From Pseudactinotalea suaedae (GTDB lineage Bacteria > Actinomycetota > Actinomycetes > Actinomycetales > Beutenbergiaceae): a DNA stretch of 64,000 nucleotides. Where the stretch lies: the NCBI RefSeq assembly GCF_009733815.1, contig NZ_WNXY01000004.1, forward strand, positions 248,001-312,000, given 5' to 3'. The position numbers were made by a program, and so were the translations under genes. A model generated the notes under the pieces. That model was not told the DNA's origin, did no database searches, and saw only the letters and a program-made list of their open reading frames with translations. This document shows, piece after piece, positions 1 through 20,280 of the stretch (positions are counted from its first letter, which is position 1; each line of letters opens with the position of its first letter).

Positions 1-429
1 TTCGTCTCGGACCAGGTGGACGCCTACGGGCTCGACGACGGCGAGCGCTGGGTGGGCGCCGTCGTCCAGATCACCAACCAGGGAACCGAGCCGATCAGCG
101 TCACCTTCAGCGACGAGACCTTCGAGCTGCCGGCATCGGTCCCGAACGACGGCTCCGTGAACCCGCACGAGGCGCTCCGCCTCGACACCGCCCGGCCGGT
201 CGGCGAGGCGCAACCCGGGCTGACCTACGAGGTGGCGCTGCTGTGGGGCACCACCGGCATGCAGGACCCGCCACCGGAGCTCACCTTCACGATGAACCGC
301 ACGGCGTGGACCGAGTGGAGCATCGAGGCCGGGTACTCCACGTGGCGCAGCACGGGCGACTCCTACGACGTGCCGCTCCCGCTCGGCGATGCCCCGGCCT
401 CGATCCTCGAGGACGAGGAGGAGGAGTGA
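1..429 (+). CDS. Envelope unit protein A (5' truncated by window edge)
   Basis: The frame is open from the first base and the start codon lies outside the window. The visible part reads as a beta-rich extracytoplasmic domain (WVGAVVQITNQ, then VALLWGTTG) ending in an acidic tail. It is clearly paralogous to the complete protein at 13906-14568: the runs FVSD...W.G.VV.ITN/VEN and VALLW recur in the same order. That complete paralogue has an N-terminal membrane segment, so this protein is probably anchored with its domain outside. Its stop overlaps the start of the next gene. The fold resembles DUF4352-type immunoglobulin-like domains, but that is an impression from the pattern. Function unknown. 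Confidence 0.75.
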   Translation, partial: FVSDQVDAYGLDDGERWVGAVVQITNQGTEPISVTFSDETFELPASVPNDGSVNPHEALRLDTARPVGEAQPGLTYEVALLWGTTGMQDPPPELTFTMNRTAWTEWSIEAGYSTWRSTGDSYDVPLPLGDAPASILEDEEEE

Positions 430-986
430 GGCGCGCGAGATGGGCCGTGGCGGGGATGGCCGCCGTCGCGGTCGCGGTGGGTGGCGGAGCGAACGCCGTC
501 GACAGCAACTACCTCGCCAGCGGGTGGCACACGGTGGTCCGGGGTGAGAGCGCCACCGACGTCGCGGCGGCGAGCTTCCAGGTCCACGTGCACGGGGCCA
601 CCGCCTCGCCGCACCTCGACGACGACGAGCTGGTGACCAGCCCCGGCCTGTTCGTGCTCGTCGACGTGTCCTACGCGACCGAGGACGCGTGGCGCACGCC
701 CGAGGAGATCGTGCTCATCGACGCCGACGGGCGCGAGTTCACCCAGCCCAGCGGGTTCGGGTCCGCGGGCAGCCCCTGGCTCGCCGGACCGGACATCTGG
801 TTCCGGGGCGGCCTGCTGTTCGAGGTGCCCGCCGACGCGGTCGCCGACCTCACCCTGGAGGTCCGGCCGGAGCGTCCCAACGCGCAGCTCCCCTCGACGG
901 TCGTCCGTGTCCCGCTGACGGTGACGACCGAGTCGTCGCCGCTGACCCTGACGTACGAGACCCTGCTGGCGGAGGGCGAGCGATGA
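426..986 (+). CDS. Envelope unit protein B, DUF4352-like
   Basis: About 186 residues. The GTG start sits inside the stop of the preceding gene (GTGA), the usual sign of translational coupling. An N-terminal hydrophobic stretch (about residues 5-20, rich in Ala/Val/Gly) is a signal or anchor, and the rest is a secreted beta-sandwich-like domain. The segments LVDVSYAT, DADGREF and LAGPDIWFRG are shared with the paralogue at 13325-13906 (VVVTLSYAT, SADGREF, LAGPDIWVRG), which fixes the true reading frame and extent. The FxLxDxDGRxF pattern is typical of DUF4352-like domains. No catalytic motif is visible, so a structural, binding or sensor role at the cell surface is more likely than an enzyme. 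Function unknown. Confidence 0.8.
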   Translation: MRRARWAVAGMAAVAVAVGGGANAVDSNYLASGWHTVVRGESATDVAAASFQVHVHGATASPHLDDDELVTSPGLFVLVDVSYATEDAWRTPEEIVLIDADGREFTQPSGFGSAGSPWLAGPDIWFRGGLLFEVPADAVADLTLEVRPERPNAQLPSTVVRVPLTVTTESSPLTLTYETLLAEGER

Positions 987-1660
987 CCGAGCCGCAGCCT
1001 CCCGCGGCCCCCTACGGCGCCGTCGACCCCGACCCCACGCCACCCCACGCCCAGGCCGCTCCTCCCGGGGCGGGCGAGCCGCCGTCGTCGGCTCCCCCAG
1101 GGCCGCCCAGCGGACTCGCGAACGAGCGAGGGCCCCGACGGCGCGTGGCGAGCACCGCCGCCGTCCTCGCTCTCGTGGGCTCCCTCGCGGGATGGGGGTG
1201 GTTCGCGAGCGAGAACGCGCGCGAGGGCTGGTGGGAGTTCGGCAGGCACGTCGCGGTCGAGCCCGGCGACGACGGATGGGCCGACGTGGACACCCTGAGC
1301 GTGCGGCTGACAGCCGCGGACACCGCCACGACGATCGACGGCGTCGAACCGCCGGCAGGGTTCGAGTACCTGGTGCTCGCCTTCGACGTCGAGGCGACCG
1401 AGGTCGAGCTGTACCGCAGCTGCACCGTGGAGGTGCTCGACACCCAGGGCCGGGAGTTCCTCGCCGGACGCGAGGTCCCCAACGGGGACCCGTACACCTC
1501 CGAGCTCATGTGCGGCACCTCCGACCCCGAGGAGGACCCGGTGCCGGGCGCTCAGTCGGTGCTGGTGCTGGTGCCCACCGGTGCCGAGCCGGTCTCGGTG
1601 CGGATCGACTCGCGGGAGTTCCCGCCCGCGACCTTCGTGGAGCTGCCCCTGCGCTCCTGA
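983..1660 (+). CDS. Envelope unit protein C, proline-rich bitopic membrane protein
   Basis: 225 residues. The ATG overlaps the preceding stop as ATGA. Order: a Pro/Ala-rich cytoplasmic N-terminus (about 1-50), a basic patch (PRRRV), one membrane helix (about 55-75), then an extracytoplasmic domain with two cysteines (YRSCTVEV and LMCGTSD) that could form a disulfide. The paralogue at 12603-13328 has the same order and both cysteines (FACDVAL, FSCGVPE). The last 109 bases are also read on the opposite strand as the 3' end of the convergent gene for protein D. Pro-rich tails of this kind are common on actinobacterial membrane proteins. Function unknown. Confidence 0.8.
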   Translation: MTEPQPPAAPYGAVDPDPTPPHAQAAPPGAGEPPSSAPPGPPSGLANERGPRRRVASTAAVLALVGSLAGWGWFASENAREGWWEFGRHVAVEPGDDGWADVDTLSVRLTAADTATTIDGVEPPAGFEYLVLAFDVEATEVELYRSCTVEVLDTQGREFLAGREVPNGDPYTSELMCGTSDPEEDPVPGAQSVLVLVPTGAEPVSVRIDSREFPPATFVELPLRS

Positions 1661-3012
1661 CGCGGGCGCCGGCGCAGCTGACCGACCGCGCCGAACCGGG
1701 TCAGCAGCCGGTCGGCGAACACGGCCGTGAGGGCCACGGTCAGCACGAGCGTGATCATCTCGGCGACCCCGTTGAGGGGGTCGTAGAGGGCGGCCCAGAC
1801 CAGCTCCTCCCGCGACCCGAGCACGAGCCGGGCGAGCCACCAGACGACGACGTCGGCCTGCGCGACCACCGTGAACAGCACGCAGTAGACGAGCACCGGC
1901 GCGAAGGCCGACCGCAGCACCAGGGCAGCGCCCCCGACCAGCGCACCGAACCGTCCGGTGGTGTCGGACAGCCTGCTCCAGGCCTGCCGCAGCGGCGCGT
2001 CCCCCACCCGGTCGCTCAGCGCCGTCCAGCGGCCGCGCTTGACGGCGCCGACGACCTCGTCCGGGCTCACGGTGTCGACGACCTGCAGCCCGTAGACGAT
2101 GACGGCGATCGTGAGCATCGAGAGCGGCACCACCAGACCGGTGACCGCGGCATCGGCAAGCACCGGCAGCGCGCTGGTGACCCAGTCGCCGACGGCGCCG
2201 AGGCTCGGGAGGCTGACGCGGACCCGGGCCCAGGCGTCGAAGACCCCTTGGGCGACCGTGCGCACGGACCACCAGGCGCCGATCCCGCCGAGGACGCCCG
2301 CGAGGACCCAGGCGCCGAGGGTTACCCAGACCGCTTCCGCGTAGCCCACGACGACCTGCAGGACACCGCGGCGCGGGTCGTCGGCCGAGCGCCACCGGTC
2401 GCTGCCGACCAGCCGGCTGCCCACGGTCCGGACCAGGAGCGCCGACGCCACGATGCCGAGCACCAGCCACGAGGCGATCTGCGGGAGCGCGCTCGTGATC
2501 GTGTCGGCGCCGAGCTGCTCGTACAGCGTTCCCCTGACGTAGGCGAGGAGGTCGGCGCGCAGGTCGCCCCGGCTCTCGTACACGACGAGGAACGGCACGA
2601 GCACGCTGCCGGTCGCGGCGACCACGCCCCAGGCGTCGGAGCGCCTCGCCTCGCGGCTGCGCACCACCAGCAGCATCCCCACGAGCGCGGCCACGCTCGC
2701 CAGCGGCACCAGCGCGAGCGCGAGGAACCCGGGCACGGCGCCGACGAGTCCGGCCGCGACGGCCAACCGGGCCAGCAGCTCGCGTGCGAGGAGGCTGGCG
2801 GCGGCGATCGCGAGCAGCGGCAGCCAGTGCTCGGCCAGCAGCGCGCCGGTGCGGCGCAGCAGGGACGCCGACTCCTGCAGCCCGAGCGGGTCGGCCGGCG
2901 CCCGCTGCGCCCGCCGGGAGGGCGGCTTCTCTGCCGGCGGAGCCGTGGGGACCTCGGAGGCACCCCCACGATCGGGCACGTGGCCCTGCTGCTCAGTCTC
3001 GCCGTCGACCAT
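1552..3012 (-). CDS. Envelope unit protein D, polytopic membrane protein
   Basis: 486 residues: a charged N-terminal tail of about 60 residues, then nine or ten predicted membrane helices. It is paralogous to the protein at 11302-12627. The shared landmarks are PFLVVYES after the third helix, VVVGYAE/LVGYAEIVW in the middle, VPLSMLTIAVIVYG, FGALVGGAALVLRS and the end of the last helix, LLTRFGA. Homology stops just after QLR, at the point where the frame crosses the stop of the convergent gene C. The last roughly 36 codons are therefore antisense to C and look like an overprinted Ser/Thr/Arg tail. The start at 3012 is an ATG with a weak ribosome site. No transporter or enzyme motif was recognised. 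Confidence 0.8.
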   Translation of the reverse strand: MVDGETEQQGHVPDRGGASEVPTAPPAEKPPSRRAQRAPADPLGLQESASLLRRTGALLAEHWLPLLAIAAASLLARELLARLAVAAGLVGAVPGFLALALVPLASVAALVGMLLVVRSREARRSDAWGVVAATGSVLVPFLVVYESRGDLRADLLAYVRGTLYEQLGADTITSALPQIASWLVLGIVASALLVRTVGSRLVGSDRWRSADDPRRGVLQVVVGYAEAVWVTLGAWVLAGVLGGIGAWWSVRTVAQGVFDAWARVRVSLPSLGAVGDWVTSALPVLADAAVTGLVVPLSMLTIAVIVYGLQVVDTVSPDEVVGAVKRGRWTALSDRVGDAPLRQAWSRLSDTTGRFGALVGGAALVLRSAFAPVLVYCVLFTVVAQADVVVWWLARLVLGSREELVWAALYDPLNGVAEMITLVLTVALTAVFADRLLTRFGAVGQLRRRPRQERRGSSTKVAGGNSRESIRTETGSAPVGTSTSTD

Positions 3013-3033
3013 CGGGCGTCACTGTAGCGAGGC

Positions 3034-3873
3034 TCACCCGAGGTCGCGGAACCGGGGAAGCATGGCGGCCAGCCGGTCGCCGTCGACCATGGGGTTGGGG
3101 GTGCGCGCGATGAAGATGATCTCGGTGGCGCCGCGGCGCACGGCATCGGCGACGAGCTCGAGGCTGGCGTCCTGGCCGTCGGGCAGCCGGAGCTGGACCG
3201 AGCGGCGGATCTCCTCGGGGTCCCGGCCGATGCTCTCGCAGTGGCCGTCGAGGACGTTCGAGGCGTCGGTGAACTCCGCGAGGTCCGAGCCGGTCCAGTT
3301 CCACACGTCGGCGTGCTGGGCGACGATGCGCAGCGTGCGGCGGCGACCGCTGCCGCCGATCCAGAACGGCACGGGCTGCTGGACGGGCTTGGGCTCGGCG
3401 ACCAGATCGGTGATCGTGTAGTGCTCACCGGCGAACGAGGTCCGCTCCTTCGTCCAGAGCGACTTGACGATCTGGACGGCCTCCTCGAAGCGGCGCAGGC
3501 GTGGGCCGGGCTCGCCGAGCTCCAGACCCATCGCGTCGTGCTCGTAGACGTTCCAGCCGGCGCCGAAGCCGAACTCCAGGCGGCCGCCCGAGAGGTGGTC
3601 CACGGTCACGGCCATCTTGGCGATCTCGGCGGGGTGGCGATAGGTGTTGCCGCTCACCATGCAACCGATCCGGACCCGCGAGGTCGCCACCGCCATCGCG
3701 GCCTGCATGGTCCAGGCCTCGAAGATGTCTCCGGCCTCGTCGTGGTCGATGCTCGCGAAGTGGTCCATCACCCAGGCGTGGTCGAAACCCGCGTCCTCGG
3801 TGAGCTGCCAGAACTCCCGGTACTCCGCCATGCTCGCCCGCTGGCTCAGCTTCAACCCGTACTTCAGCGTCAT
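3034..3873 (-). CDS. LLM-class (luciferase-like) F420/FMN-dependent oxidoreductase
   Basis: 279 residues, a full-length luciferase-like TIM barrel. Visible family features are the N-terminal strand LKYGLKLSQ, the DHAWVMDHFAS segment, IGCMVSGNTYRHPAEIAKMAVTVD (substrate/cofactor strand and following helix), the signature GRLEFGFGAGWN, and PFWIGGSG near the C-terminal part of the barrel. The family uses reduced F420 or FMN. Because the window also encodes the F420-reducing enzyme Fgd, F420 is the likelier cofactor. The substrate cannot be read from the sequence. The gene is 21 bases downstream of the start of membrane gene D on the same strand order and is preceded by a long repeat-rich gap. 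Confidence 0.85.
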   Translation of the reverse strand: MTLKYGLKLSQRASMAEYREFWQLTEDAGFDHAWVMDHFASIDHDEAGDIFEAWTMQAAMAVATSRVRIGCMVSGNTYRHPAEIAKMAVTVDHLSGGRLEFGFGAGWNVYEHDAMGLELGEPGPRLRRFEEAVQIVKSLWTKERTSFAGEHYTITDLVAEPKPVQQPVPFWIGGSGRRRTLRIVAQHADVWNWTGSDLAEFTDASNVLDGHCESIGRDPEEIRRSVQLRLPDGQDASLELVADAVRRGATEIIFIARTPNPMVDGDRLAAMLPRFRDLG

Positions 3874-3948
3874 CCGATCGCTCCCTCTCGTGGTGTGCCC
3901 ACGCTATTGCGACGACGTCCTGGTCCGGCAGCCCCGTCTCACGCCCCG

Positions 3949-4130
3949 GTTTCACCGCACTTTCGACGCACCCCGGGTTTCACCGCACTTTCGACTCGCC
4001 CCGGTTTCACCGCACTTTCGACACACCCCGGGTTTCACCGCACTTTCGACGCGCCGCCGAAAGTGCGTTGAAATCTGGAGCCGGTCGAAAGTGCGTTGAA
4101 ATCGGGATCCGGTCGAAAGTGCGGTGAAAT
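3949..4130. repeat. 28-base-period inverted repeat array (four direct plus three reverse units)
   Basis: Four copies of GTTTCACCGCACTTTCGAC start at 3949, 3977, 4004 and 4032. They are followed by three copies of the reverse complement at 4056, 4084 and 4112, with minor changes in the first two (CGTTGAAAT in place of CGGTGAAAT). Spacing is 27-28 bases throughout; the separators are 8-9 bases and C/G-rich. The array is one large imperfect inverted repeat with a 5-base centre. It lies between the LuxR-type regulator (transcribed into it) and the luciferase-like gene. It is not CRISPR: the gaps are far too short and the orientation reverses. It could act as a transcript-end structure, a protein-binding array or a mobile palindrome cluster. 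Confidence 0.9.
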
Positions 4131-4145
4131 CGCTGGTGGTCGAGG

Positions 4146-7088
4146 TCAGATCAGGCCGCGGGACATCGCCAGGGCGACGGCCTCGGTGCGGGAGGTGGCG
4201 CCGAGCTTGGCCATCACCCGGGTCAGGTGGACGCTCACGGTCTTCTCCGAGATGAACAGCTCTGCGCCGACCGCCCGGTTGGTGAGGCCACGGGCGACCC
4301 GTTCCAGCACCGAACGCTCGCGCGGCGTCAGCAGGTCGGTGCCGATGCGGCGGCTGCCGGGCAGGGTGATCTTGAACCTCCGGCACGCGGCCTCGACCGC
4401 CGCCGACAGCGGGGCTGCCGCCATCTCCGTGGCGAGCGCGTGCGCCCGGATCAGCTCATCGCCCCCGGTGCGATCGCCCGCGGTGAGCAAGGCCTCCCCC
4501 AGACGCCACCGGGCCAGCGCCTCGTGCGGCCGCTCGCCGTACTCGGCGACCTCGACGACGGCCCGCCACAGCCCCGGGTCGTTCTCGCCCCGAGCGCGGG
4601 CTGCCTCGGCACGTGCGCGCGCGAGCCACATCCGTCCCTCGGCGCCGAGCTGGTTGCCGCGCGGCACCCCCACCTGGGCGACCCGCTCGACACGCTGGAG
4701 GATCTCCTCGGTGGACCAGCCGGGGTCGGGGCTCTGGGGTGCGCCGTGACCCAGCGCGTCGGCGCGGGCGGCGAGGAGCGCGGCGCCGATGCGGATCTCG
4801 GCGAGGTCGTCGGGGTACTCGGGCCTGGCCAGCGCTGCGGTCAGCGCCTGCTCGACCAGATCGGGGCGGCCGCGCCACAACCAGGAGTTGACGATGCCGT
4901 GGCCCGCCATGGCCTCGCTCACGCGACCGGTGAGGACGGCACCCGCGATCTGCTCGGCCGTGCCCAGGGCCGCGACGTCGGCATCGAGCAGCTTCCAGTC
5001 GCCCAACCATGACGCCGCGAGCACGCGGGTGGACAGCACGAGCTCACGCTCACCGGCCGGCACCGCCTCCAGGGCCGCCGTGGTGCGGGTCATCACCTCG
5101 GTGAAGGCGCCGCGGGCGATGTCCACGAGGCACAGCAGCCAGGTGAGCTCGCGGCCGTAGCCCGACCAGCTGCGGCCGTGCTTGGCGGCGACGGCGATGC
5201 CCTCCTGGGCGATCTCGACCGCCTCGGGGATGCGGTCGTGGTCGTACCGCAGGATCGCCATGTTGAAGAAGGCGCGGAGCTCGGTGTCGTCGGCTCCGCC
5301 CTCCCGGGCCTTGCGCCGCGCCTCCTGCAGCCGTTCCATCGCGCCGTCGACATCGCCCTCGTGCTGCAGCAGGAACGCCAACGAGATCAGCGCATCCGCC
5401 TCGGCGCCCTGCGCACCCACCGCCCTGGCCTCGGCGATCGCCCGCTCGGCGAGGTCACGACGCTCGGGGGTGATCTCGCCGTAGGACATCGTCGACATCA
5501 CCCAGGCGCGCTCCGCCGTCGAGGGCTCGTTCTCCAGCAGCGCCCAGGCGAGCGCGATCTGCCGTTCCGCCTCCCGCCACTCACCGGAGTTGTAGAGCAG
5601 CTTCGCGATCCGGCGCCGGGCACCCGCCTGCTGCAGCACGGCTCCCGTCGCGGTGGCCATCTCCACCGCGGCTCGTGCGTACGACAGCGCCCGATCGGTG
5701 CGTGCGGCGGCGGTGGCCTCGTCGCAGGCGCGCAGCAGCAGCGTGAGCTCGTCGACGCCGGTGACCGCCTCGGGGTCGGTGACCGCGGGCCAGAGCGCGA
5801 GCGCCTTCTCCACGTGCGCGAGCGCGTCGCTGTGCGCGGCGAACTCCCCGGCGACCGCGCTGGCCTCGAGCCGAGCCCTCAGCGCGCGCGGGAGGTCACC
5901 GGCCCGGGTGGCGTGGAAGGCGATCGCCGCCTGCCAGCCCGAGGGTTGCTCGGCCTCGAGCACCGCGACGTAGGCGCCGTGGAGGCGGGCGCTCTCCCCG
6001 GGCAGCATGTCGGCGAGCAGGGCCTCCCGCAGCAGCGCGTGACGGAAGGCGTAGGCCCCGTCGTGCGCCACCACGAGCACGTGGGACTGCACGCACTCGC
6101 GCAGCGCGGACTCGATCTCCGCCGGTGCGAGCCCCACCACGTCGGTCGCGACCAGCCCTTCCAAGGAGGAGGCCCACAGGTCGCGCTGGCCCACGATCGC
6201 CGCCGCCCGGACGACGCGCTGCGCCGCCGACGACAGCCGCTCGATCCGGTCCAGCAGCACGGAGGTGAGCACGTCGCTGAGCTCGGCGGCGCCACCGCTG
6301 GCCGCGCTCATCAGCTCCTCGGCGAAGAAGGCGTTGCCCTCCGAGCGCGTCGCGACATCGGCCACCAGCTCGTCATCGGCCTGCCCCTCGGGCAGCAGCG
6401 CACGCGCGAAGGCGCGGGCGGCCTCGGGTCCCCACGGCTCGACGTCGACCCGGCGCACCCCCCGCATGCGGGCCACGCTGGCGAGCCAGGGGCGCAGCGG
6501 GTGCTGGCGGTTCAGGTCATCGGAACGGTAGGTGAGCAGCACGAGGATGCGGCTGCTGCCGAGCCGCGAGAGCAGGAACAGCAGCAGGTCGCGGGTGGAG
6601 GGGTCGCTCCAGTGGAGGTCCTCGATCACCACCAGCACCGGCGCCGAGCGGGCGGCGCGCACCAGGAGGGCGAGAACGCCGTCGAACAGCCGCACCTGGT
6701 CACCGGCGACATCGGCCCGCAGCAGCCTCTCGGTGCTCTCGACGATCTCGGTGTCCTCGGTGGCCGCGTGCAGCTGGGAGATGATCTCGAGGATGGGCAG
6801 GAAGGGGGGCGCCGCCTGACCGAGCCCGAGGCAGTGGCCGAGCAGCACGACCCCGCCCTGGGCCTGCACCTCGGCGGAGATCTCGGTGACCAGTCGGGTC
6901 TTGCCGATGCCGGCATCACCGGCGAGGACGACCGCAGCGGCCTCGCCGTCATCGGCTTGCGTCCAGGCATCGCGCAGCGCACCGATCTCGGACTCGCGAC
7001 CGATCAGCGGGGCGGTGAGGGCAGGCGTCGCCACGTCCGGCATCGTCTCACGCAGCAGCGACACCGCTGCTGTGGCGAGCGCCGTCAT
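4146..7088 (-). CDS. LuxR-family transcriptional regulator with AAA ATPase domain (LAL type)
   Basis: 980 residues from an ATG at 7088; the open frame extends further upstream but through a hairpin and a separate small gene. The N-terminal STAND-like ATPase has Walker A GDAGIGKT (about residues 57-64) and a Walker B-like VLVVIEDLHWSD near 150. A long helical, TPR-like middle follows. The C-terminal LuxR helix-turn-helix begins LTPRERSVLERVARGLTNR and ends before the stop. This is the layout of large ATP-binding LuxR regulators, in which ligand and ATP control DNA binding. Its targets are not evident; the flanking F420-linked genes are candidates by position only. The small basic-protein gene upstream is separated by a hairpin, so it likely has its own promoter. 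Confidence 0.9.
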   Translation of the reverse strand: MTALATAAVSLLRETMPDVATPALTAPLIGRESEIGALRDAWTQADDGEAAAVVLAGDAGIGKTRLVTEISAEVQAQGGVVLLGHCLGLGQAAPPFLPILEIISQLHAATEDTEIVESTERLLRADVAGDQVRLFDGVLALLVRAARSAPVLVVIEDLHWSDPSTRDLLLFLLSRLGSSRILVLLTYRSDDLNRQHPLRPWLASVARMRGVRRVDVEPWGPEAARAFARALLPEGQADDELVADVATRSEGNAFFAEELMSAASGGAAELSDVLTSVLLDRIERLSSAAQRVVRAAAIVGQRDLWASSLEGLVATDVVGLAPAEIESALRECVQSHVLVVAHDGAYAFRHALLREALLADMLPGESARLHGAYVAVLEAEQPSGWQAAIAFHATRAGDLPRALRARLEASAVAGEFAAHSDALAHVEKALALWPAVTDPEAVTGVDELTLLLRACDEATAAARTDRALSYARAAVEMATATGAVLQQAGARRRIAKLLYNSGEWREAERQIALAWALLENEPSTAERAWVMSTMSYGEITPERRDLAERAIAEARAVGAQGAEADALISLAFLLQHEGDVDGAMERLQEARRKAREGGADDTELRAFFNMAILRYDHDRIPEAVEIAQEGIAVAAKHGRSWSGYGRELTWLLCLVDIARGAFTEVMTRTTAALEAVPAGERELVLSTRVLAASWLGDWKLLDADVAALGTAEQIAGAVLTGRVSEAMAGHGIVNSWLWRGRPDLVEQALTAALARPEYPDDLAEIRIGAALLAARADALGHGAPQSPDPGWSTEEILQRVERVAQVGVPRGNQLGAEGRMWLARARAEAARARGENDPGLWRAVVEVAEYGERPHEALARWRLGEALLTAGDRTGGDELIRAHALATEMAAAPLSAAVEAACRRFKITLPGSRRIGTDLLTPRERSVLERVARGLTNRAVGAELFISEKTVSVHLTRVMAKLGATSRTEAVALAMSRGLI

Positions 7089-7106
7089 CGCCCGGTGGAA
7101 ATGCCA

Positions 7107-7138
7107 ACGGCCCGGTGGTTTCGCAACCACCGGGCCGT
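7107..7138 (-). terminator. Hairpin terminator after the small basic-protein gene
   Basis: A perfect 14-base-pair stem (7107-7120 with 7125-7138) carries a four-base loop. On the minus strand it is followed by TTGGCATTTCC, a modest T-containing tail. It sits 44 bases after the stop of the 53-codon gene and 19 bases before the start of the LuxR regulator, so it most likely ends the small gene's transcript. Confidence 0.7.
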
Positions 7139-7182
7139 CGGGTCGGTACCGCCAGGGACGCACGCCCTGGCTCGCCGGGCGT

Positions 7183-7344
7183 TCATGCCGCGCGGATGAT
7201 GCTCTCGCGGGCCGCTCGCTCAGCTCGTCGCTGCAGCAGCAGTGCCCGAAGGCGTGCGACCTTCCGGAGCGCCTGTGCGCGCCGGACGTCGCGAAGCTGC
7301 TCGCGTCGATACTCGTTCTCAGATGCATAGAACTGCGGTTCCAT
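7183..7344 (-). CDS. Small basic helical protein
   Basis: 53 residues, starting MEPQFYASENEYRREQL. The start at 7344 is preferred because AAGGAAGGGA lies at ribosome-binding distance upstream. A 16-residue longer version is open but lacks such a site. The rest is almost entirely helix-forming and Arg-rich (VRRAQALRKVARLRALL, RRAERAARE), suggesting an amphipathic or nucleic-acid-contacting helix. The gene has its own terminator and is divergent from fgd. No family assignment. Confidence 0.65.
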   Translation of the reverse strand: MEPQFYASENEYRREQLRDVRRAQALRKVARLRALLLQRRAERAARESIIRAA

Positions 7345-7431
7345 GGCCGTCCCTTCCTTGTGATGTGCCTCCACTCTGTCGGTGAGGGCCACCTCGGGGC
7401 TATGGGAATTCCGCGCACGGTTGTCTCTGAG

Positions 7432-7476
7432 GACCCCTTACCCCACCTCGACGGCGGCTCGTCGGGGTAAGGGGTC
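7432..7476. promoter_or_regulatory. Inverted repeat upstream of fgd
   Basis: Perfect 13-base arms (7432-7444 GACCCCTTACCCC and 7464-7476) are separated by 19 bases, in the divergent gap between the small basic gene and fgd and 40 bases before the fgd start. The position suits an operator. It could also be a leader hairpin of the fgd transcript. Confidence 0.5.
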
Positions 7477-7515
7477 GGGTACCGATCGGGGTGGCGAAGG
7501 TGGAAGGATCGGGTC

Positions 7516-8523
7516 ATGACGCTTCCACTTCGGCTCGGTTACAAGGCATCGGCGGAGCAGTTCGACCCACGCGAGCTCGTCGAGCTCGCGGTGGTGGCCG
7601 AGCAGCGGGGGTTCGAGTCGGCCACGGTGTCCGACCACTTCCAGCCGTGGCGGCACGAGGGCGGCCACGCGCCGTTCTCGCTCACCTGGCTGGCGGCGGT
7701 CGGTGAGCGCACGAGCACGATCCAGCTCGGCACGAGCGTGATGACCCCGACGTTCCGGTACAACCCTGCCGTGATCGCGCAGGCGTTCGCGACCATGGGG
7801 GTGCTCTACCCCGGCCGGATCTTCCTGGGCGTGGGTTCGGGCGAGGCGCTCAACGAGATCGCCTCCGGCTGGACCGGCGAGTGGCCCGCGTTCAAGGAGC
7901 GGTTCGCGCGCCTGCGCGAGTCGGTGGACCTGATGCGCGCGCTGTGGACCCAGGACCGGGTGAGCTTCGACGGCGAGTACTACAAGACGGTCGACGCCTC
8001 GATCTACGACCGCCCCACCGGCGGCGTGCCGGTCTACGTCGCCGCCGGCGGCCCGGTGGTCGCTCGCTACGCCGGCCGCGCCGCGGATGGCTTCATCTGC
8101 ACCTCGGGCAAGGGCGCCGAGCTGTACTCCGAGCAGCTCATCCCGGCCCTGAAGGAGGGCGCGGAGAAGGCCGAGCGGGACGTGGAGCAGATCGACCGGA
8201 TGATCGAGATCAAGCTCTCCTACGACACCGACGGTGACCTCGCGCTGGAGAACACCCGCTTCTGGGCGCCGCTGGCGCTGTCGAAGGAGCAGAAGCACGA
8301 CATCACCGACCCGGTCGAGATGGAGCACGCCGCCGACGCCCTCCCGATCGAGCAGATCGCCTCACGCTGGATCGTGGGATCCGACCCCGACGAGGTGGTG
8401 GCCCAGGTCCGCCAGTACATCGACTGGGGCCTCAACCACCTCGTGTTCCACTTCCCCGGTCACGACCAGCGCCGCGCGATGGAGCTGTTCGAGCGGGACC
8501 TCGCGCCGCGCCTGCGCGGCTAG
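7516..8523 (+). CDS. fgd: F420-dependent glucose-6-phosphate dehydrogenase
   Basis: 335 residues, the usual length. It oxidises glucose 6-phosphate to 6-phosphogluconolactone and reduces coenzyme F420, supplying reduced F420 to other enzymes. It follows mycobacterial Fgd1 almost throughout: [61 protein letters not shown] and FICTSGKG. By alignment from memory, His41, Trp45, Glu14 and Glu110 match the catalytic/F420-site His40, Trp44, Glu13 and Glu109 of the Mycobacterium enzyme. AAGGTGGAAGGA precedes the ATG. The stop overlaps the stop of the convergent membrane gene at a CTAG. No F420 biosynthesis genes are in the window. Confidence 0.95.
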
Positions 8524-10226
8524 AAGCGCTGCTCAGGCGGCTGCGGCTGGTGGGGCGTCTGCAGCTCCACCCGCCGCAGCCCGAGCTGCGCGAGCACACC
8601 GAGCGCGGCCACCAGCAGCAGCATCGGCAGCGGGTAGAGCAGACCCAGCAGCCAGCTGCTGTCCTCGTTGTGGAAGCCCATGGACCCGACGAGACGCACG
8701 AGCGTCACCGGCGCGGTGGCGGTGTCGCCGCCGGAGCTGACGATCAACGAGGGCAGCAACGACTGCGCCTGCGTGATCAGCAGCACCCCCGCCGCCCCGG
8801 CAGCGGCGGCGCCGACCACCCGGCGGTCGGTGCGTCCCGTCCGCTCTCGCATCCCGGCGAACAGCATCGCCATGACCACGACCGCCCCGACGACGACGGT
8901 GGGTCCGGGGATCCGACCGACCCAGGTGTCGAGGATGCCCATCTCGCGCTGCTCCAGGTAGCGCGCGAGCATCAGCGGCGCCGGCCCGACGAAGAGCCAC
9001 GGCGCGAGCGGGAGCAGCAACCACAGGCTTCGCCGCCCGGCAGGCCGGCACCAGCCGATCGCAGCCCCACCCAGCACCGCCACACCCACCTGCAGCACGG
9101 TGGCGATCGCCGCCGGTACCCACGTGGCGAGGCCGACCCGAATCGGTGAGACCTGCCCGCCGGGTGCCGCAGCGAACCCGCCGGCGAGCACGGGCAGGAG
9201 CAGCACCACGGCGGCGAGCAGCACCACACCGGCGATCACCGCTCCGACCACACCGCGCCCGCTCGACCCGGACGGCGGACCGACATCCTCCCGGACGCCG
9301 AGCCGCGCCCCGACCAGCAGCAGCGCAAGGACCGCCACGATGCCCAGGACGCCGGCGAGGAGCAGCAGGAACCCGGCGACCGCGGCCCCGCGTCCGAAGT
9401 CGAACATGATGAAGCCCAGCTGGTAGATCAGCTGAGTCGGAGACTGCGAGCCGCTGTCGGCGCCGCTGCGGCCGAAGACGAACGGGAGCTCGAACAGCTG
9501 CGGACCCAGCGCCAGCGCGCCGGTGACACCGACCAGCAGCACCGCTGCGACCCCGCGCCCGGGCGCGCGGCCAGCCAGCGCCACGGCGAACGCGGTGGCG
9601 AAGGCGGCCGTCAGCAGCGGGAGCGCCGCGAGCGTGACGACCACGACGACGAAGGTCTGCGCCTGCGCGGCAGAGCCGAACCCGTCACCGGCCACGAACC
9701 GGGACAGCCCGATCCCCAGCGGCACGAACAGGGCCGCCAGCACGCCGACGACCACCCGCACCGCACGGGCATGCTGCTGCTGCGGCGTCATCGCACCCCC
9801 GATGACGAACCCCAGCACCGCCGCGACCACGGTGACCGGCAGGACCGCGACGATGGCGAACCCGAGCGCGGGTCCCAGCTGGGGCAGCACGTCCGACCAG
9901 TTCTGCAGGCCGACCGGATCGGCGTCGGCGCCGATCGGGTTCCCGCTGCGTGTGCTCTCCACCAGGGTCGACACCGTGGGGATCACGAGCTGCCAGACCA
10001 CGAGCGCGTACAGCGCCGCCACCCCCACCCATCCCACCGTCCGGGTGTTCGACGGCGGCGCGGGGCTCGCGTAGCTCGGGTCACCTGGTTGCGGGTACGG
10101 ATGGCCCCCGTACGGCCCAGCCGCGGCCTCGTAGCCGCCGGGCTCGGCCTGGTAGCCGCCTGGCCCGGGTTGCTGTGCGCCGCCGTCGGGCTGGTACGGA
10201 CCGGGGCCGGTGGGTGGCATCGTCAT
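8520..10226 (-). CDS. Polytopic membrane protein with Pro/Gly/Tyr-rich N-terminus
   Basis: 568 residues. The ATG at 10226 was chosen because GAGGAGAGGGAGACACC lies just upstream; an 18-residue longer start has none. A disordered tail of about 60 residues is rich in Pro, Gly, Tyr and Gln. Roughly 12 hydrophobic helices follow, spread evenly to the C-terminus, with no long soluble domain. No transporter signature or catalytic motif was recognised. It is convergent with fgd, sharing the four bases CTAG as both stops, and divergent from the hydrolase gene. Function unknown. Confidence 0.8.
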
Positions 10227-10322
10227 GGTGTCTCCCTCTCCTCGACCGGCCCACCTAAGCAGAAGGGCACGAGCCGGCACAGGTCACCGCTGCCCATGCG
10301 GCCGATGGGCGAGGATGGACCG

Positions 10323-11270
10323 ATGACGTGGAGCGAACCTCAGCCCGATGTCCTCGGTGGCGACTGGGTGGCTCGCACCCTGGACCTGACCGATGCGAGC
10401 GGACCGGGCGTGGCCACGCTCGTGCACCGCGCCGACGCCGGAGGCCGCGCGCGGGCGATGCTCTACCTGCACGGGTTCGCCGACTACTTCTTCCAGGAGC
10501 ACCACGCGCAGGAGTGGGCGGACAACGGCTACGACGTGTACGCGCTCGACCTGCGCGACTACGGCCGGTCGATCCGCCCGGGTCGCACACCGAACTGGAT
10601 CACCGATCTGCGTGACTACGACATCGAGATCGACGCCGCGCTGGCGTTCGTGCGCGCGCAGGGCCACGAGGTCGTGGTGCTCGACGGGCACTCGACGGGC
10701 GGCCTCATCGCCGTGCTGTACGCCCACGACCACCCGGGCGCGGTCGATGCGCTCGTGCTCAACAGCCCCTGGTTCGACCTCAACGCCACGTGGTTCGACC
10801 GCGTGATCACCACCCGCGTGATCGATCGGCTGGGCGTCACCCATCCGGACACCCTGATCTCGCGCATCGAGGAGCCGTACGGCCGCTCGCTGCACGTGGG
10901 GTCCGGAGGCGAGTGGGACTACCAGCTCTCCTGGAAACCGCACGACGGCTTCCCGGCGCTGGCCGGCTGGGTGCGCGCGATCCGGCGTGGCCACGCCCGG
11001 CTCGTGAAGGGCCTCGCGATCGTGGTGCCGGTGCTGGTGGCGACATCGGGGCGCAGCGGCGACCGGAAGAAGCCGACCGCGCAGGACCTGGCCGGCTCCG
11101 ACGTCGTGCTCGACGTCGAGCACATGTGGAAGCGCGCCCCGCTGCTCGGTCCTCGCGTGCGGGTGCTGCGCGTGCCGGGCGGGCGGCACGACCTGACGCT
11201 GTCGGAGCGGGCGGTCCGCGAGCGCTACAGCGCGCTGCTGTTCGGATGGTTGGAGCGGGTGCTCCCCTGA
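10323..11270 (+). CDS. Alpha/beta hydrolase (serine hydrolase, lysophospholipase-like)
   Basis: 315 residues from the ATG at 10323; in-frame starts further upstream are possible. Features of the fold: LYLHGFADYF forms the oxyanion strand (about 47-56), GHSTGG (122-127) is the nucleophile elbow with Ser124, and GGRHDLTLS near residue 291 supplies the likely catalytic His. The LHGF...YDVYALDLRDYGRS pattern is typical of the monoglyceride lipase/lysophospholipase branch (serine aminopeptidase S33 domain). There is no signal peptide, so it acts in the cytoplasm. It stands 31 bases before the second copy of membrane gene D and may be cotranscribed with it. Substrate unknown. Confidence 0.85.
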   Translation: MTWSEPQPDVLGGDWVARTLDLTDASGPGVATLVHRADAGGRARAMLYLHGFADYFFQEHHAQEWADNGYDVYALDLRDYGRSIRPGRTPNWITDLRDYDIEIDAALAFVRAQGHEVVVLDGHSTGGLIAVLYAHDHPGAVDALVLNSPWFDLNATWFDRVITTRVIDRLGVTHPDTLISRIEEPYGRSLHVGSGGEWDYQLSWKPHDGFPALAGWVRAIRRGHARLVKGLAIVVPVLVATSGRSGDRKKPTAQDLAGSDVVLDVEHMWKRAPLLGPRVRVLRVPGGRHDLTLSERAVRERYSALLFGWLERVLP

Positions 11271-11301
11271 GGCCGGTCGGCCTCCCCTACAGTGACCAGC
11301 G

Positions 11302-12627
11302 ATGACGCAGACCGTCGAGGCACAGCCCGAGCAGGAGCGCTGGTCGCAGCTGCTCGGCCTCGGGCTGCTGGGCACCGCGTGGCGGCTGCTTGCGGCGCAC
11401 TGGTGGCAGCTGGTCGCGATCGCCGCCTGCGCCTACGTGGCGCACGATCTCGTGATGCGGCTCGCGTTGCTCGCCTACCGCGCCGGTGCCCTCCCGGGGC
11501 TGCTGGTGTTCTCCCTGGTCCCGTTGGTCCCGGTGGTCGCGATCGTGCTGATGCTGCTGGTGCTGCGGCGCCGTCAGGGTGCGAGCGGCGGGTTCGCGGC
11601 GTTCGTCGCGGCGATCGGCAGCGTGCTGATCCCGTTCCTGGTCGTCTACGAGAGCCAGGGCGACTTCAGCGACGACCTCAGCGAGTTCCTGTACGGCGGC
11701 TTCACCCAGGTCCAGGAGGCGCAGTGGGGCATCGACGGCGTCGAGCCCGGCGCCTTCGACGCCCTGGTCCCGGACGCCGGCGACCCGCTCCTGCTCGCCG
11801 TCGTGGTGGTCGCGTTCCTGCTGCGGGCGCTCGGTGCCCGGATCGCCGCCCGCGACTCCCTCTGGCAGGGCTCGGGCGCTAGGCGCGGGCTGCGGGTGAC
11901 GTTGCGCTCCCTGGTCGGGTACGCCGAGATCGTCTGGATCGTCATCGGCGCCGTGGTCGTCAACACCACCGTGAAGGGCCTGCACGACTGGTGGCAGCAG
12001 CGCCGGCTGGGCCGCTCGCTCGACGACTGGTGGCAGTCCGTCACGGTCTCGTTCCCCACCTTCGGTGACGTCGGAGCGTGGCTGGCCACCGTCGTCGGGA
12101 CCGTGCTCGACGGCGTGGTGACCGGTCTCGTGACCCCGCTCGCCTGGTTGACCATCGGCGTCGTGATCTACGGGTTGTCCGCCGCCGAGGGCATCTCCGA
12201 GGACGAGGTCGTCACGGCGATGCAGCGGCAGTCGCGGCTGAAGAAGGTCACGCAGCGCGTCAGCCCCGCGGTCATCAGCCTCGCGTGGCGCCGGATCGCG
12301 GACACCGAGGGCCACTTCGGGGCGCTGCTCGGCGGCGTCGCGATGATCCTGCGCTCCCGCTTCGTGCCGGTGCTGGTGTTCTGCCTCGTGTACACCGCGG
12401 CCACCACATGGTTGCCGTACCTGCTGTGGGACATCCCGCGCTCGCTGCTCACCCGGTTCGACTACGTGGACTGGCTCGCGCTCTACGGCCCGATGCAGGC
12501 GGTGTCCCAGATCCTCGTGCTGTGCGTGACCGCGCCGCTGCTGGCCGCTTTCGCCGACGCGCTGCTGACGCGGTTCGGCGCGCAGTCGCAGCTGCGTCTT
12601 CCTCAGTCGATCTCGAGCTCGATGTAG
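11302..12627 (+). CDS. Envelope unit protein D, second copy
   Basis: 441 residues, nine or ten membrane helices, paralogous to the protein at 1552-3012 over almost its whole length. It has a shorter N-terminal tail and a loop of about 45 residues after PFLVVYESQGD, which the first copy lacks in part. Similarity ends at LLTRFGAQSQLR; only nine unrelated residues follow before the stop. The 3' end overlaps convergent gene C by 25 bases, against 109 bases in the first copy. The ATG lies 31 bases after the hydrolase stop. The repeated pairing of D with A-B-C argues that D is the membrane partner of the three anchored proteins. Confidence 0.8.
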   Translation: MTQTVEAQPEQERWSQLLGLGLLGTAWRLLAAHWWQLVAIAACAYVAHDLVMRLALLAYRAGALPGLLVFSLVPLVPVVAIVLMLLVLRRRQGASGGFAAFVAAIGSVLIPFLVVYESQGDFSDDLSEFLYGGFTQVQEAQWGIDGVEPGAFDALVPDAGDPLLLAVVVVAFLLRALGARIAARDSLWQGSGARRGLRVTLRSLVGYAEIVWIVIGAVVVNTTVKGLHDWWQQRRLGRSLDDWWQSVTVSFPTFGDVGAWLATVVGTVLDGVVTGLVTPLAWLTIGVVIYGLSAAEGISEDEVVTAMQRQSRLKKVTQRVSPAVISLAWRRIADTEGHFGALLGGVAMILRSRFVPVLVFCLVYTAATTWLPYLLWDIPRSLLTRFDYVDWLALYGPMQAVSQILVLCVTAPLLAAFADALLTRFGAQSQLRLPQSISSSM

Positions 12628-13328
12628 CCCGAGCTGAACCCGGTGCTGGTGATCTCCACCGCGGTCGGCTCGGCGTCCGCAGGTACCAGCACCAGCAGCG
12701 CCTGCTGCGCGGGGACGTCGTCATCCGGCTCGGGCACGCCGCAGGAGAAGGTCCACTCGAACCCGTCGACGAAGCTGTCCACGAAGAGGTTGGCCACGAA
12801 GTGCCGGCCGCCGCCGTCAACCAGTGCGACGTCGCAGGCGAAGAGATCGGGGTTGGTCGACTCCGCGTCGAGCACCACCCGCCAGGCGTGGAACCCCGAC
12901 GGCGGCTGCCAGTCGGTCCCGGGCAGCGAGGGTGTCGCGCCGAGGTCCGTAGCCTCGACGAGCGAGACGGTCAACCCCTCGTGGGTGGCCGCGCCCGCTC
13001 CGTCGACGGCCACCGGCTCGTCCCGCTCGGACCCCAGCCACACGGTGCGGAAGTGCTCGCTCGAGATCCACCCGGTGCCGACCAGCCCGACGACGAGGGC
13101 GATCACCTGCAGCACGTGCACGGTGGAGGCGCGGCGTCGCTGCGGCGTCGGTGGTGCCGGTGGCCCGGCTCCCCAGACCGGCGCGGCGCCTGCACCCGGC
13201 CCGGGTGCGGCGCCGGAGTCGGCCGCCGGGACTGGGGGCTGGGCGGCAGGCTCGGGCTGAGGCAAACCGCGCGGCGGCGTGTCGATCTCGGCCTCGGGCC
13301 GCGGTTGCTCCTGCGGCGGTTCGCTCAT
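12603..13328 (-). CDS. Envelope unit protein C, second copy
   Basis: 241 residues: a Pro/Ala/Gly-rich cytoplasmic tail (about 1-65), a basic stop-transfer patch PQRRRAS, one membrane helix (about 70-92, VLQVIALVVGLVGTGW), then an extracytoplasmic domain with two cysteines matching those in the copy at 983-1660. The motif LLVLVPADAEPTAVEI parallels VLVLVPTGAEPVSVRI in that copy. The start overlaps the stop of gene B as ATGA. Function unknown. Confidence 0.8.
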   Translation of the reverse strand: MSEPPQEQPRPEAEIDTPPRGLPQPEPAAQPPVPAADSGAAPGPGAGAAPVWGAGPPAPPTPQRRRASTVHVLQVIALVVGLVGTGWISSEHFRTVWLGSERDEPVAVDGAGAATHEGLTVSLVEATDLGATPSLPGTDWQPPSGFHAWRVVLDAESTNPDLFACDVALVDGGGRHFVANLFVDSFVDGFEWTFSCGVPEPDDDVPAQQALLVLVPADAEPTAVEITSTGFSSGYIELEID

Positions 13329-13906
13329 CTCTCCCCCGCCCCGAGGATCTGCTCCTCGGACAGCTCGATCACGTCGAGCACCGCGCCGGGATCGAGATCG
13401 AGAGGGATCCGGGCGTACTGCGTGGGCATCGGGCCGTAGAGCTGGATCCCGGGGTCGAAGACCAGCGTGAGGCCCTCCAGTGCGTCGGGGGCGACCTCGA
13501 AGGCGAGATCACCGCGGACCCAGATGTCGGGACCGGCCAGCCAGCCGCCCGAGCCCGTGCGGTTGGACACCGGGAACTCCCGCCCGTCCGCCGATCGCAG
13601 CACCAGACCGGTACCCGAGGCGCCGCGGGGGCGATCGGCGGTCGCGTAGGACAGCGTCACGACGACCCAGACGCCGTCGGTCCCCGTCGGTGGCGGCGTC
13701 TCGAAGCGGCAGCACACGAGGACCGTGTGCGCCGCCTGCGCCTGGCTGACGTGGACCGTGAACGGATACGCGCCGGCGTCCTCCCCGATCGCGCCGGTCG
13801 AGGACGTCGGCCCGTACGGGAGCAGCCGTGCGTCGGCCACGTTGGTGGCGATGCCGAGCACGACCGCGAGCGCGGCGAGCCCGACGATCATCCAGCGCCG
13901 TCGCAT
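13325..13906 (-). CDS. Envelope unit protein B, second copy, DUF4352-like
   Basis: 193 residues from the ATG at 13906; an upstream in-frame start would run back into gene A. MRRRWMIVG followed by a hydrophobic stretch forms a signal or anchor. The domain then shows VVVTLSYAT, SADGREF and LAGPDIWVRGDLAFEV, aligning with the copy at 426-986. A pair of cysteines (VLVCCRFE) is particular to this copy. It is translationally coupled to both neighbours through one- and four-base overlaps. A cell-surface binding or sensor role is inferred from topology only. Confidence 0.8.
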   Translation of the reverse strand: MRRRWMIVGLAALAVVLGIATNVADARLLPYGPTSSTGAIGEDAGAYPFTVHVSQAQAAHTVLVCCRFETPPPTGTDGVWVVVTLSYATADRPRGASGTGLVLRSADGREFPVSNRTGSGGWLAGPDIWVRGDLAFEVAPDALEGLTLVFDPGIQLYGPMPTQYARIPLDLDPGAVLDVIELSEEQILGAGER

Positions 13907-14568
13907 CAGAGGTCCTCCTCCGGCTCGAACAGCGCCGGCGGCAGCTCGGTGCGCGGCAGCTCGACGTGCCACACGTCACCCAGAGACATCCACTGGTGCT
14001 CGTTCGACATCGGGCCGAACGTCCACAGCGACTCGGTCATCGACGCGGGGAGCACGTCAGGCACGGCGTCGGCGTCGGTGATCGGCCACAGCAACGCCAC
14101 CTGGGTCCGCACACCGGGCAGCGCAACGGACCCCATGGTTCCGTCGTCGACCCGGTACGCCTCCTTCGCGACCGACGCCCCCGTGACCAGGGTGCCTGCG
14201 GGCAGCTGGGGTGCCAGCGCGTCGCTGGCCGGTCCCGGGAAGGTGAGGGTGATGGCCTCCTCGGTGTGGTTCTCGACCTCGACGACGACCCCGAGCCACG
14301 CCTCGGCGCCGTCGGTGATCTCCAACGTGGTCCGCTGCGTCTCGTCCGAGACGAAGAACGCGATCGGGCGCACGACCATCGGCCCGAGGTCGACGTCCTG
14401 GCCGGGCGCCACGTCGAACGTGCGCGGCTCCGCGGTGCCGAACCCGCCCAGCGCCCCCACGACCACCGGCACCAGCAGCAAACCACCGAGCACGAGCCGC
14501 CTCGGCCATGTGGCGAGCAGCAGCGCCAGCACGGTGCGTACCGTGATCGCCCCCGCCTCCATGCTCAC
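13906..14568 (-). CDS. Envelope unit protein A, second copy (complete)
   Basis: 220 residues from a GTG at 14568; an ATG two codons later is equally possible. One membrane helix (about 20-42, RRLVLGGLLLVPVVVGALGG) is preceded by an Arg pair, then comes an exported domain with VVVEVENHTEEAITLTF, a typical beta-sandwich strand pair, and VALLWPITDADAV, ending in an acidic tail (FEPEEDL). The 5'-truncated gene at 1-429 is its paralogue. It is the first gene of the A-B-C operon and divergent from lsr2 across 135 bases. Confidence 0.8.
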   Translation of the reverse strand: MSMEAGAITVRTVLALLLATWPRRLVLGGLLLVPVVVGALGGFGTAEPRTFDVAPGQDVDLGPMVVRPIAFFVSDETQRTTLEITDGAEAWLGVVVEVENHTEEAITLTFPGPASDALAPQLPAGTLVTGASVAKEAYRVDDGTMGSVALPGVRTQVALLWPITDADAVPDVLPASMTESLWTFGPMSNEHQWMSLGDVWHVELPRTELPPALFEPEEDL

Positions 14569-14703: not shown

Positions 14704-15027
14704 ATGGCCACCAAGACGGTGACGGTGCTCATCGACGACGTCGATGGCAGCGCCGCAGACCGCACGGTCGATATCTCTCTCGACGGTGAGCGGTACGAGA
14801 TCGACCTCTCCACCGCCCATCACCACGAGATGGTCAGGGATCTGGCCCGGTACATGGCGGTCGCACGCCGTGTGGGCGGCACCGGCTCCCCCACGCCGTT
14901 CTACAGCGACATCAAGGCGGACCCGCGCGCCGTGCGCGAGTGGGCCCGTTCGAACGGGATCGACCTCCCCGCCAGCAAGCGGGTCCCGAAGGACGTCATC
15001 GCGCAGTTCCACGCCGCGGGCAACTGA
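14704..15027 (+). CDS. lsr2: Lsr2-family nucleoid-associated protein
   Basis: 107 residues. Lsr2 is the actinobacterial H-NS analogue: it bridges AT-rich DNA and silences horizontally acquired genes. The N-terminal dimerisation domain (about 1-60) is well conserved (VTVLIDDVDGS, YEIDLS, VARRVGG), and the C-terminal DNA-binding domain has VREWARSNGIDLP followed by VPKDVIAQFHAAG. The AT-hook-like RGR of the family is replaced by SKR here. This keeps one Arg but loses the Gly and the first Arg, so minor-groove contact may differ. GAAGGGA precedes the ATG. It is convergent with recD at a gap of only seven bases. Confidence 0.92.
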   Translation: MATKTVTVLIDDVDGSAADRTVDISLDGERYEIDLSTAHHHEMVRDLARYMAVARRVGGTGSPTPFYSDIKADPRAVREWARSNGIDLPASKRVPKDVIAQFHAAGN

Positions 15028-15034
15028 TCCGCCG

Positions 15035-19900: not shown

Positions 19901-20280
19901 TCGAACCTGCCCAGCGCCTCGCGAAGGCGACGGCGGCGCAGGCCGCGCTCCTCGGGATCGACGTCGAGAAGATGGCTCGTCAGCCCGCCGTCGTCGGCGG
20001 GAATCCTCGGGTCCTCACCCCGTGCCGTGGCCGCGAACGCGCGCTCGACGCCGACCAGCCGTTCCCGCACCCGCTCGCGCAGCTCCTGCGAGGCGGCCCG
20101 CCCGAAGGTGACGACCAGCATCTGCTCGAGCGGTGCCACCCCTTCGGCGACCATGCGGGCGACGAGCGCGGCGATCGTCCAGGTCTTGCCGGTGCCCGCG
20201 CTCGCCTCGAGCATCGTGGTCGACCGGTCGGCGGGGAGCTCGCCGAAGACGTCGAACGCCTGCGGCTCGTCCGCGCTCAT
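16903..20280 (-). CDS. recB: Exodeoxyribonuclease V subunit beta (RecB helicase-nuclease)
   Basis: 1125 residues. RecB is the 3'-5' helicase and the only nuclease of RecBCD, processing double-strand breaks for RecA. Visible in order: Walker A LEASAGTGKTWTIAAL (about 24-39), SF1A motif VVLVDEFQDTDPVQW, GDPKQAIYAFRGGD, the late motif VQVLTIHGSKGLEF, and LLYVALTRAKSQV. Near the C-terminus, the nuclease domain has GSVDVMLRVGERYLVVDYKT, with the catalytic Asp...Asp-Tyr-Lys arrangement. It is coupled to recC by ATGA and to recD by GTGA. Confidence 0.95.
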   Translation of the reverse strand: MSADEPQAFDVFGELPADRSTTMLEASAGTGKTWTIAALVARMVAEGVAPLEQMLVVTFGRAASQELRERVRERLVGVERAFAATARGEDPRIPADDGGLTSHLLDVDPEERGLRRRRLREALGRFDAATIVTTHQFCQLVLKGLGVAGDTDVGATLVEDLDDLLGEVVDDLYLRGFKDDSNPVFTRGLAMKIAMAAVADPSARLEPQAADPGSPAARRLGFAQAVRDELEVRKRRLGLLSYDDLLSQLAHALEPTDSPARTRMRQRWSVVLVDEFQDTDPVQWHVLDRAFTGHARMVLIGDPKQAIYAFRGGDVVTYLQARAGAETIATLGVNRRSDGPLLTRMQALLEGAELGDPRIVVRKVDAAHEHGRLVGAPHSAPFRLRLVDRALFAGDSPRIGPLRQHVARDLAADVRELLTAGARLGERDLRASDVAVLCQSHRQAGYVADALTDAGIPTVLSSGGSVFGTEGARQWLTLLEAIERPQLTGRVRAAGLTGFFGHSAEDLGADTTDQITGEIAETLREWSDLIRDRGIAAVLEAAAGRGMIGRVLGTIGGERLLTDLRHVGEVLHDHAHHHDLGVIALCSWLREQMRDGARGPAAAERPRRLDSDAAAVQVLTIHGSKGLEFGVVYLPFLADNYIMEPDFPLFHDEHGNRCLDVGGAPFAGEHLRAAGSEDLGEDLRLLYVALTRAKSQVVAWWLPSNRNTPQSALHRLVFGRAPRAAAVPENVPVLDHATTEEYARRWEKVGAFSVETAEPADVADAVGEPIRPALGARRWERHIDMIWRRTSYSALSAAAEAELATRVVGVGGPMVDSEPEYTTRDDEPDVDPTTEVAVVGDLPSPMAALPAGATFGSLVHEVLELADPATPEHGGDLREEMLTRIAEARVRWPVAELADPAATEALADALVAVCDTPLGPLAGTTLREIGLADRLAELDFELPLHGGDAGGGGSADATLADLGPLLRKHLRPGDPLLPYAGIVADPAYAAQRLRGYLTGSVDVMLRVGERYLVVDYKTNWLGSFDEELRASAYAPVRLAEAMTHSSYPLQALLYAVVLHRFLRWRLPGYDPARHLGGVLYLYVRGMCGPDTPVVDGHPCGVFSWQPPAALVSEISDLLDGAEVAA

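Follow-up and report, generated by a model that had tools for sequence, protein, structure and literature searches.

The window analysed here comprises 64,000 nucleotides of Pseudactinotalea suaedae DNA (contig NZ_WNXY01000004.1, positions 248,001 to 312,000; host genome 4.54 Mb), and its first part holds two copies of a four-gene unit, termed A-B-C/D, in which genes for three small envelope proteins (A, B and C) face a gene for a polytopic membrane protein (D). A sequence-only reading had described two such units, inverted relative to each other, with gene order and tail-to-tail layout kept. All eight genes were found, with A-B-C facing D in each unit, and pairwise identities between the two units span 37–42% (A 40%, B 37%, C 37%, D 42%).

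A1, from 210 bases before the window (L001:9791) to 429, + strand: 212 residues, one N-terminal transmembrane segment, domain predicted outside
B1, 426–986, + strand: 186 residues, one N-terminal transmembrane segment and a DUF4352-like β-sandwich
C1, 983–1660, + strand: 225 residues, Pro-rich N-terminal tail, one transmembrane segment, apparent B paralogue
D1, 1552–3012, - strand: polytopic membrane protein of 486 residues, 3' coding end 109 bases into C1
D2, 11302–12627, + strand: polytopic membrane protein of 441 residues, conserved R175, E209, W230, R234, P279 and D419
C2, 12603–13328, - strand: 241 residues, 3' coding end 25 bases into D2
B2, 13325–13906, - strand: DUF4352/MPT63 fold in the model, start ATG sharing one base with the A2 stop
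A2, 13906–14568, - strand: 220 residues, N-terminal transmembrane segment, apparent B paralogue by profile comparison

A1 is truncated by the window edge. Within each unit the starts and stops of A, B and C overlap by 1–4 bases, which suggests translational coupling of the three genes. The coding ends of C and D also overlap, by 109 bases in unit 1 and 25 bases in unit 2, a feature that the sequence-only reading had not mentioned.

The A-B-C/D layout in Actinomycetota

Matches to the D profile were found in 53 of the 396 genomes (20 of 109 genera) of the order, in 60 of 394 genomes (26 of 138 genera) of the class, one of these matches being spurious (E 5.6e-4, contains stops), and, at phylum level, in 6 of 296 genomes, all six from the same class. 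These counts are lower bounds because a third unit in the same genome escaped both the single-protein search, which gave only two D genes there, and the D profile labelled A1. This very divergent, convergent A-B-C/D unit (contig C19, locus L203, 4894–8160; D at E 9.6e-50) came to light through a B-like match in a B-profile search, after which the DNA was read at that place; it is also present in both congeners (L204, L205). Two D loci on contig C1 of genome G017, at 40934 and 3640610, have equal scores and lie near the two ends of the contig, perhaps as an assembly overlap.

C, B and A were all convergent with D in 106 of the 111 D loci examined in the class, a sample that takes in all 27 new order-level D places and 40 of the 61 class-level places beyond the order (one of the 61 spurious, 21 left aside), and from which duplicates had been removed (L001, L056, L058, L059, L061–L065, L068–L070). 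The proposal to score how often D neighbours A-B-C was thereby carried out, and its outcome does not speak against the unit. In the remaining five loci D stands alone (L116, L193), is accompanied by C only (L177; L196, at a contig end) or has A-B-C on its own strand (L135). Since loci of one genus are not independent, the layout was also scored by genus group, and the full unit occurs at least once in 40 of 43; in this count three of the named genera could be identical with coded ones, and the named group draws on more than one family. Within one phylum, the four families keep this layout in 11 coded families and in the named genera as well.

Searches with B gave a matching picture. Of the 53 D-containing genomes among the 396 of the order, 51 gave a strong B match, with E-values of 7.2e-14 or lower; the two missed were G264 and G391, and G264 does hold the unit (L133), as found with an iterated profile. 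Twelve genomes had a B match and no D match, all of them weaker (1.7e-12 or worse). Three of the twelve were fetched: two contained a single larger protein with no D nearby, and in the third no called gene matched.

All four genes appear to be under purifying selection, with ratios of nonsynonymous to synonymous substitution (dN/dS) of 0.06–0.42 in seven close pairs of relatives, the window's own pairs not being among them. Given that the layout is shared by 106 of 111 D loci and that selection acts on all four genes in the relatives, chance is excluded on genomic grounds as the source of the arrangement. A reading in which the genes make no functional complex and are linked by chance or synteny can appeal to the physical association of A to D being deduced rather than observed; it would have to explain why four families keep a constant layout in 11 coded families, the named genera and a second phylum (below) while their other neighbours change, and we give it virtually no credence.

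Duplication and proposed transfer of the unit

In a tree of concatenated A-D sequences from 33 units, the unit-1 and unit-2 clades are sisters (support 100/98) inside the family, and all three species of the genus hold both units. By this phylogeny the A-B-C/D unit is truly duplicated in the genus, as a block, and the duplication is old, given the presence of both copies in every species. Three Ornithinimicrobium species are placed within the unit-1 clade, and leaving them out of it was rejected (approximately unbiased test, p-AU 4e-5). This nesting suggests that unit 1 was later transferred whole to Ornithinimicrobium, with the branching order within the unit-1 clade resolved in part. An initial idea from the B alignment, that unit 1 derived from Ornithinimicrobium, was not borne out by the tree, in which that genus is nested inside.

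Units on alphaproteobacterial plasmids

No match was obtained when plasmids were searched with window D2. A distant D used as query matched nine Rhizobiaceae plasmid records (best E 2e-8; six with coverage of at least 80%), and a Shinella D then matched 41 records (Sinorhizobium 18, Ensifer 9, Rhizobium 6, Paracoccus 4, Shinella 3, Agrobacterium 1), of which 18 are conjugative. Fourteen of the 41 were read, and A to D were recognised in them by profiles built from actinobacterial loci alone, at E-values of 3e-44 to 2e-63 for D, 3e-21 to 5e-27 for B, 9e-14 to 3e-29 for A and 1e-4 to 9e-16 for C. C, B and A are convergent with D in 12 of the 14 loci, and the C/D ends overlap in 8 of these 12. 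The two other loci are a D-A-B-C row in Shinella (L218) and a broken locus on a plasmid of Rhizobium sp. CC-CFT758 (L222), which looks like a decayed unit with D and B in pieces. The 13 intact plasmid D proteins form one clade (FastTree support 1.0), share no more than 30% identity with any D from Actinomycetota and have no settled placement among these. Sinorhizobium medicae WSM419, a laboratory symbiont, carries the unit on pSMED02. In the six intact loci that carry annotation, all unit genes are labelled as hypothetical proteins only. As judged by profile matches and gene order, the same four families and layout are present in a second phylum, on plasmids of Rhizobiaceae and Paracoccus.

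The conjugative plasmids, the occurrence of the unit in Ornithinimicrobium and its patchy distribution in both order and class (the lower bounds given above) would all suit an accessory module spread by transfer and serving defence, immunity or niche resistance instead of a housekeeping envelope complex. Set against this, PADLOC matched none of its families to the eight window proteins, and the unit is syntenic within the family, where the same hydrolase lies upstream of D in 16 genomes; we regard such an accessory role as quite improbable.

Modelled fold of B and predicted topology of A, B and C

Each of A, B and C has an N-terminal hydrophobic segment preceded by positive charge and followed by acid, the basis on which their domains are predicted to lie outside the membrane; A2 has a second, weaker peak. 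A model of B2 (predicted local distance difference test score, pLDDT, 80) gave Foldseek matches at E 3e-5 to 9e-4, and its structural relatives are YxkC, YjhA, YcdA and MPT63. PDB entries matching this model are 3cfu, 4r4g, 1lmi and 9a4z. In structural alignments the Z-scores were 11.0 for YcdA (root-mean-square deviation, rmsd, 3.0; 127 residues aligned), 10.9 for YjhA (3.7; 128) and 10.5 for MPT63 (3.0; 121). Structural rows with Z under 8, a toxin receptor-binding domain among them, were taken as generic β-sandwiches. The window A, B and C proteins gave no match to DUF4352 (PF11611) over the Pfam cut-off; 14 of 30 B relatives did match it (E up to 1; best 7.1e-5). We conclude from the model that B has an immunoglobulin-like β-sandwich of the DUF4352/MPT63 type, so that the DUF4352-like label first given to these proteins is correct for B, by model fold and by sequence in the 14 relatives.

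Profile comparison linked B to C at 94.7% and A to B at 92.3%, and A and C look like B paralogues on this evidence. PF11611, YjhA, YcdA, YxkC and MPT63, which we take to be one family group, share with B the modelled fold and the character of small anchored or secreted envelope proteins; they differ in that window B1 and B2 fall below the cut-off of the DUF4352 model. A further difference is that the three paralogues here accompany a polytopic membrane protein, in a layout of four genes that stays the same. In genus g48, B carries a long, low-complexity N-terminal tail rich in Gln, Gly and Pro, of up to ~700 residues (read in L123 and L127; in L125, L128 and L130 seen only as long frames). As a clue to function this tail was set aside, being low-complexity sequence with no Pfam domain.

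D and the proposed membrane complex

The nine or ten helices originally assigned to D need qualification: D is clearly a membrane protein, and the helix count is less certain, with nine hydropathy peaks in D1, eight in D2 and about eight long helices in a D2 model (pLDDT 82, from 23 sequences) that also has helices between the transmembrane segments. Among 122 D sequences from two phyla, residue 209 is acidic in every one (102 E, 20 D), residue 175 is basic in 119 and residue 419 is acidic in 107; Y116 and P279 are each conserved in 121 and W230 in 112. Positions 175, 209 and 419 of D2 lie within the hydrophobic peaks 163–181, 204–222 and 404–422.

The constant four-part composition, the duplication and transfer as a block, and the presence of the unit in two phyla with different envelopes argue that A, B, C and D probably form one cytoplasmic-membrane complex. 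The working complex proposed by the sequence-only reading is in this respect well supported on genomic grounds, by co-duplication, co-transfer and two-phylum conservation. Its core would be D, a bundle of about eight transmembrane helices that carries intramembrane charges (R175, E209, D419), and the single-pass A, B and C proteins would form a collar of DUF4352-type domains on its outer face. Such a complex would move a small or lipid-like solute across the membrane, ion-coupled through E209, and the collar would select or gate the solute. Ion coupling is suggested by the invariance of the membrane acid; this invariance, together with the lack of an ATPase subunit, by which the unit also differs from ABC transporters, makes a secondary transporter our first choice, with modest confidence. 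Transport by the complex falls just short of an even call, and the whole reading, D with a three-part DUF4352 collar acting as an ion-coupled transporter, is put forward tentatively.

Several observations weigh against this transporter reading. Charges within the membrane can be purely structural, and Foldseek returned nothing below E 0.001 for the D model, so that no transporter fold was matched. The profile likeness of A to C is weak (36%), and the stretches fetched at L116 and L193 contain D but no A-B-C. The neighbourhoods of the class loci show neither an ATPase nor a substrate gene at a fixed position next to the unit and thus point to no energy source or substrate; an ABC ATPase cluster does lie near the unit in 10 loci, at varying positions.

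The main rival to a transporter is a scaffold: D would be a lipid-associated, non-transporting bowl like that of CTL/SLC44 proteins such as PNS1, A-B-C its external cap, and the module would organise or protect the envelope. The top VIA-align row for the D model is yeast PNS1 (9f63; Z 9.5, rmsd 4.5, 235 residues aligned over model positions 12–437), and its aligned length is the greatest of the 50 rows, several others of which also span the model. By VIA-align's own note, Z-scores below ~13 are common for helical bundles, and that of PNS1 falls under this line. PNS1 is missing from the 50 Foldseek rows listed for the D model, and profiles A1 and A8 of D picked up no CTL chain among PDB sequences at E-values of up to 10. 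To our knowledge, CTL/SLC44 proteins have no A-B-C partners. The features taken for comparison were the ten-transmembrane bowl and its three amphipathic helices; in one account, PNS1 and CTL1 have antiparallel transmembrane pairs separated by amphipathic helices and are proposed not to transport (PMC13160678), to which the helices between transmembrane segments in D may be likened. The likeness of D to PNS1 is whole-length and weak, has no counterpart in PDB sequence searches and concerns proteins that are eukaryotic, and we consider the scaffold unlikely.

Other candidates for D were rejected. Most structural rows reflect long helices matching ABC exporters and receptors. Pfam searches of 28 D relatives gave hits confined to single members, the best being DUF6338 (9.2e-5) and LptF_LptG (0.0038), each in one of the 28 and not taken as evidence, and the GPDPase_memb model (PF10110) finds two places on contig C18 of the same genome that are not D genes.

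Overlapping coding ends of C and D

Overlap of the C/D coding ends was seen in 83 of 108 loci, with a median of 25 bases, and 97 loci show either an overlap or a gap of at most 30 bases; three extreme distances (768, 252 and -439) may reflect misassigned frames. Only 5 of 48 other convergent neighbours in those loci overlap, a contrast for which the Fisher test ignores kinship among loci and draws its control genes from a simple ad hoc gene caller. A count by genus is fairer because the loci are related: of 41 genus groups, 28 have overlap as their majority state, as do 10 of 12 family-level groups, of which 11 are coded families and the twelfth pools named genera. Family f35 is mostly without the overlap, with 4 cases among its 14 loci that have C; in f15 it occurs at 3 of 6. 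A co-directional A-B-C block on the D strand occurs in two lineages: at L135, where one other gene lies between D and A, and at the Shinella locus L218, where the D stop lies within a 4-base overlap with A.

No terminator-like site was found between C and D in the window units, so that overlapping antisense transcripts are expected from the convergent genes. The A-B-C and D messages would then be mutually antisense through their 3' ends, and D would be balanced against A-B-C; this effect is possible, though we hold it doubtful. The convergence of linked genes fits the excludon or noncontiguous operon idea, which is described for overlaps between transcripts (PMC7154746). The A-B-C/D unit shares with it convergent, overlapping gene ends and differs in that coding ends of linked genes overlap, as read from DNA, and in that the overlap persists through much of a class and in part of a second phylum. 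In a more elaborate proposal, D would belong with the CTL/PNS1 bowl fold as its prokaryotic relative and have an essential acid in the membrane, a DUF4352 heterotrimer would cap it, and the antisense coding-end overlap would set its stoichiometry, all in an undescribed machine of Actinomycetota and Alphaproteobacteria; this proposal is a long shot.

Neighbouring genes

Five loci from two families (L123, L127, L130, L168, L169; named by eye) have an ECF-like (extracytoplasmic function) sigma gene upstream of D, accompanied in three by a small DGPF-like gene (by eye); another family has three weaker ECF-like matches, further off. These genes, the three anchored paralogous domains outside and the long B tail in g48 could point to a sensor or regulator of envelope stress, in which a cell-wall or lipid ligand binds to the DUF4352 domains and D relays the signal inwards. 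Across the class no kinase, output domain or regulator recurs with the unit, and the ECF-like neighbours are exceptional, which leaves this signalling role improbable.

In the window, an alpha/beta-hydrolase-like gene (10323–11270; name and likeness by eye) lies upstream of D2, and its counterparts lie upstream of D in the 16 other genomes of the family mentioned above (22 locus ids, six of them duplicates). Between the two units, 8520–10280 encodes a polytopic membrane protein with an N-terminus rich in Pro, Gly and Tyr. Adjoining unit 2, 14722–23669 holds an Lsr2-like gene followed by candidate recD, recB and recC genes (by eye).

Place among known systems

Searches of the eight window proteins against Pfam and NCBIfam gave nothing credible, PDB sequence searches returned rows at chance level only, and neither D nor the four-gene set has a fitting entry in Pfam, NCBIfam, PADLOC or the PDB. 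Nothing on a four-gene module of this kind was found in the literature searched, most subscription journals lying outside its scope. The original statement that no described system has this composition holds within that range. The refuting condition set with it, that all four proteins belong to a described transporter or secretion family, does not apply, since D matched none among those searched. What is known is the B fold; new within these databases and this literature are the D family, the four-gene composition and the kept convergent overlap. The claim of novelty concerns the system as a whole, which could prove to be a new family of a known kind, for example of secondary transporters.

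With no known family fitting D, the module looks like a new envelope machine: a fixed four-gene envelope system that spans two phyla, legume symbionts included. Why linked genes stay convergent with overlapping coding ends can also be studied here as a natural experiment, with the co-directional loci L135 and L218 as natural controls.

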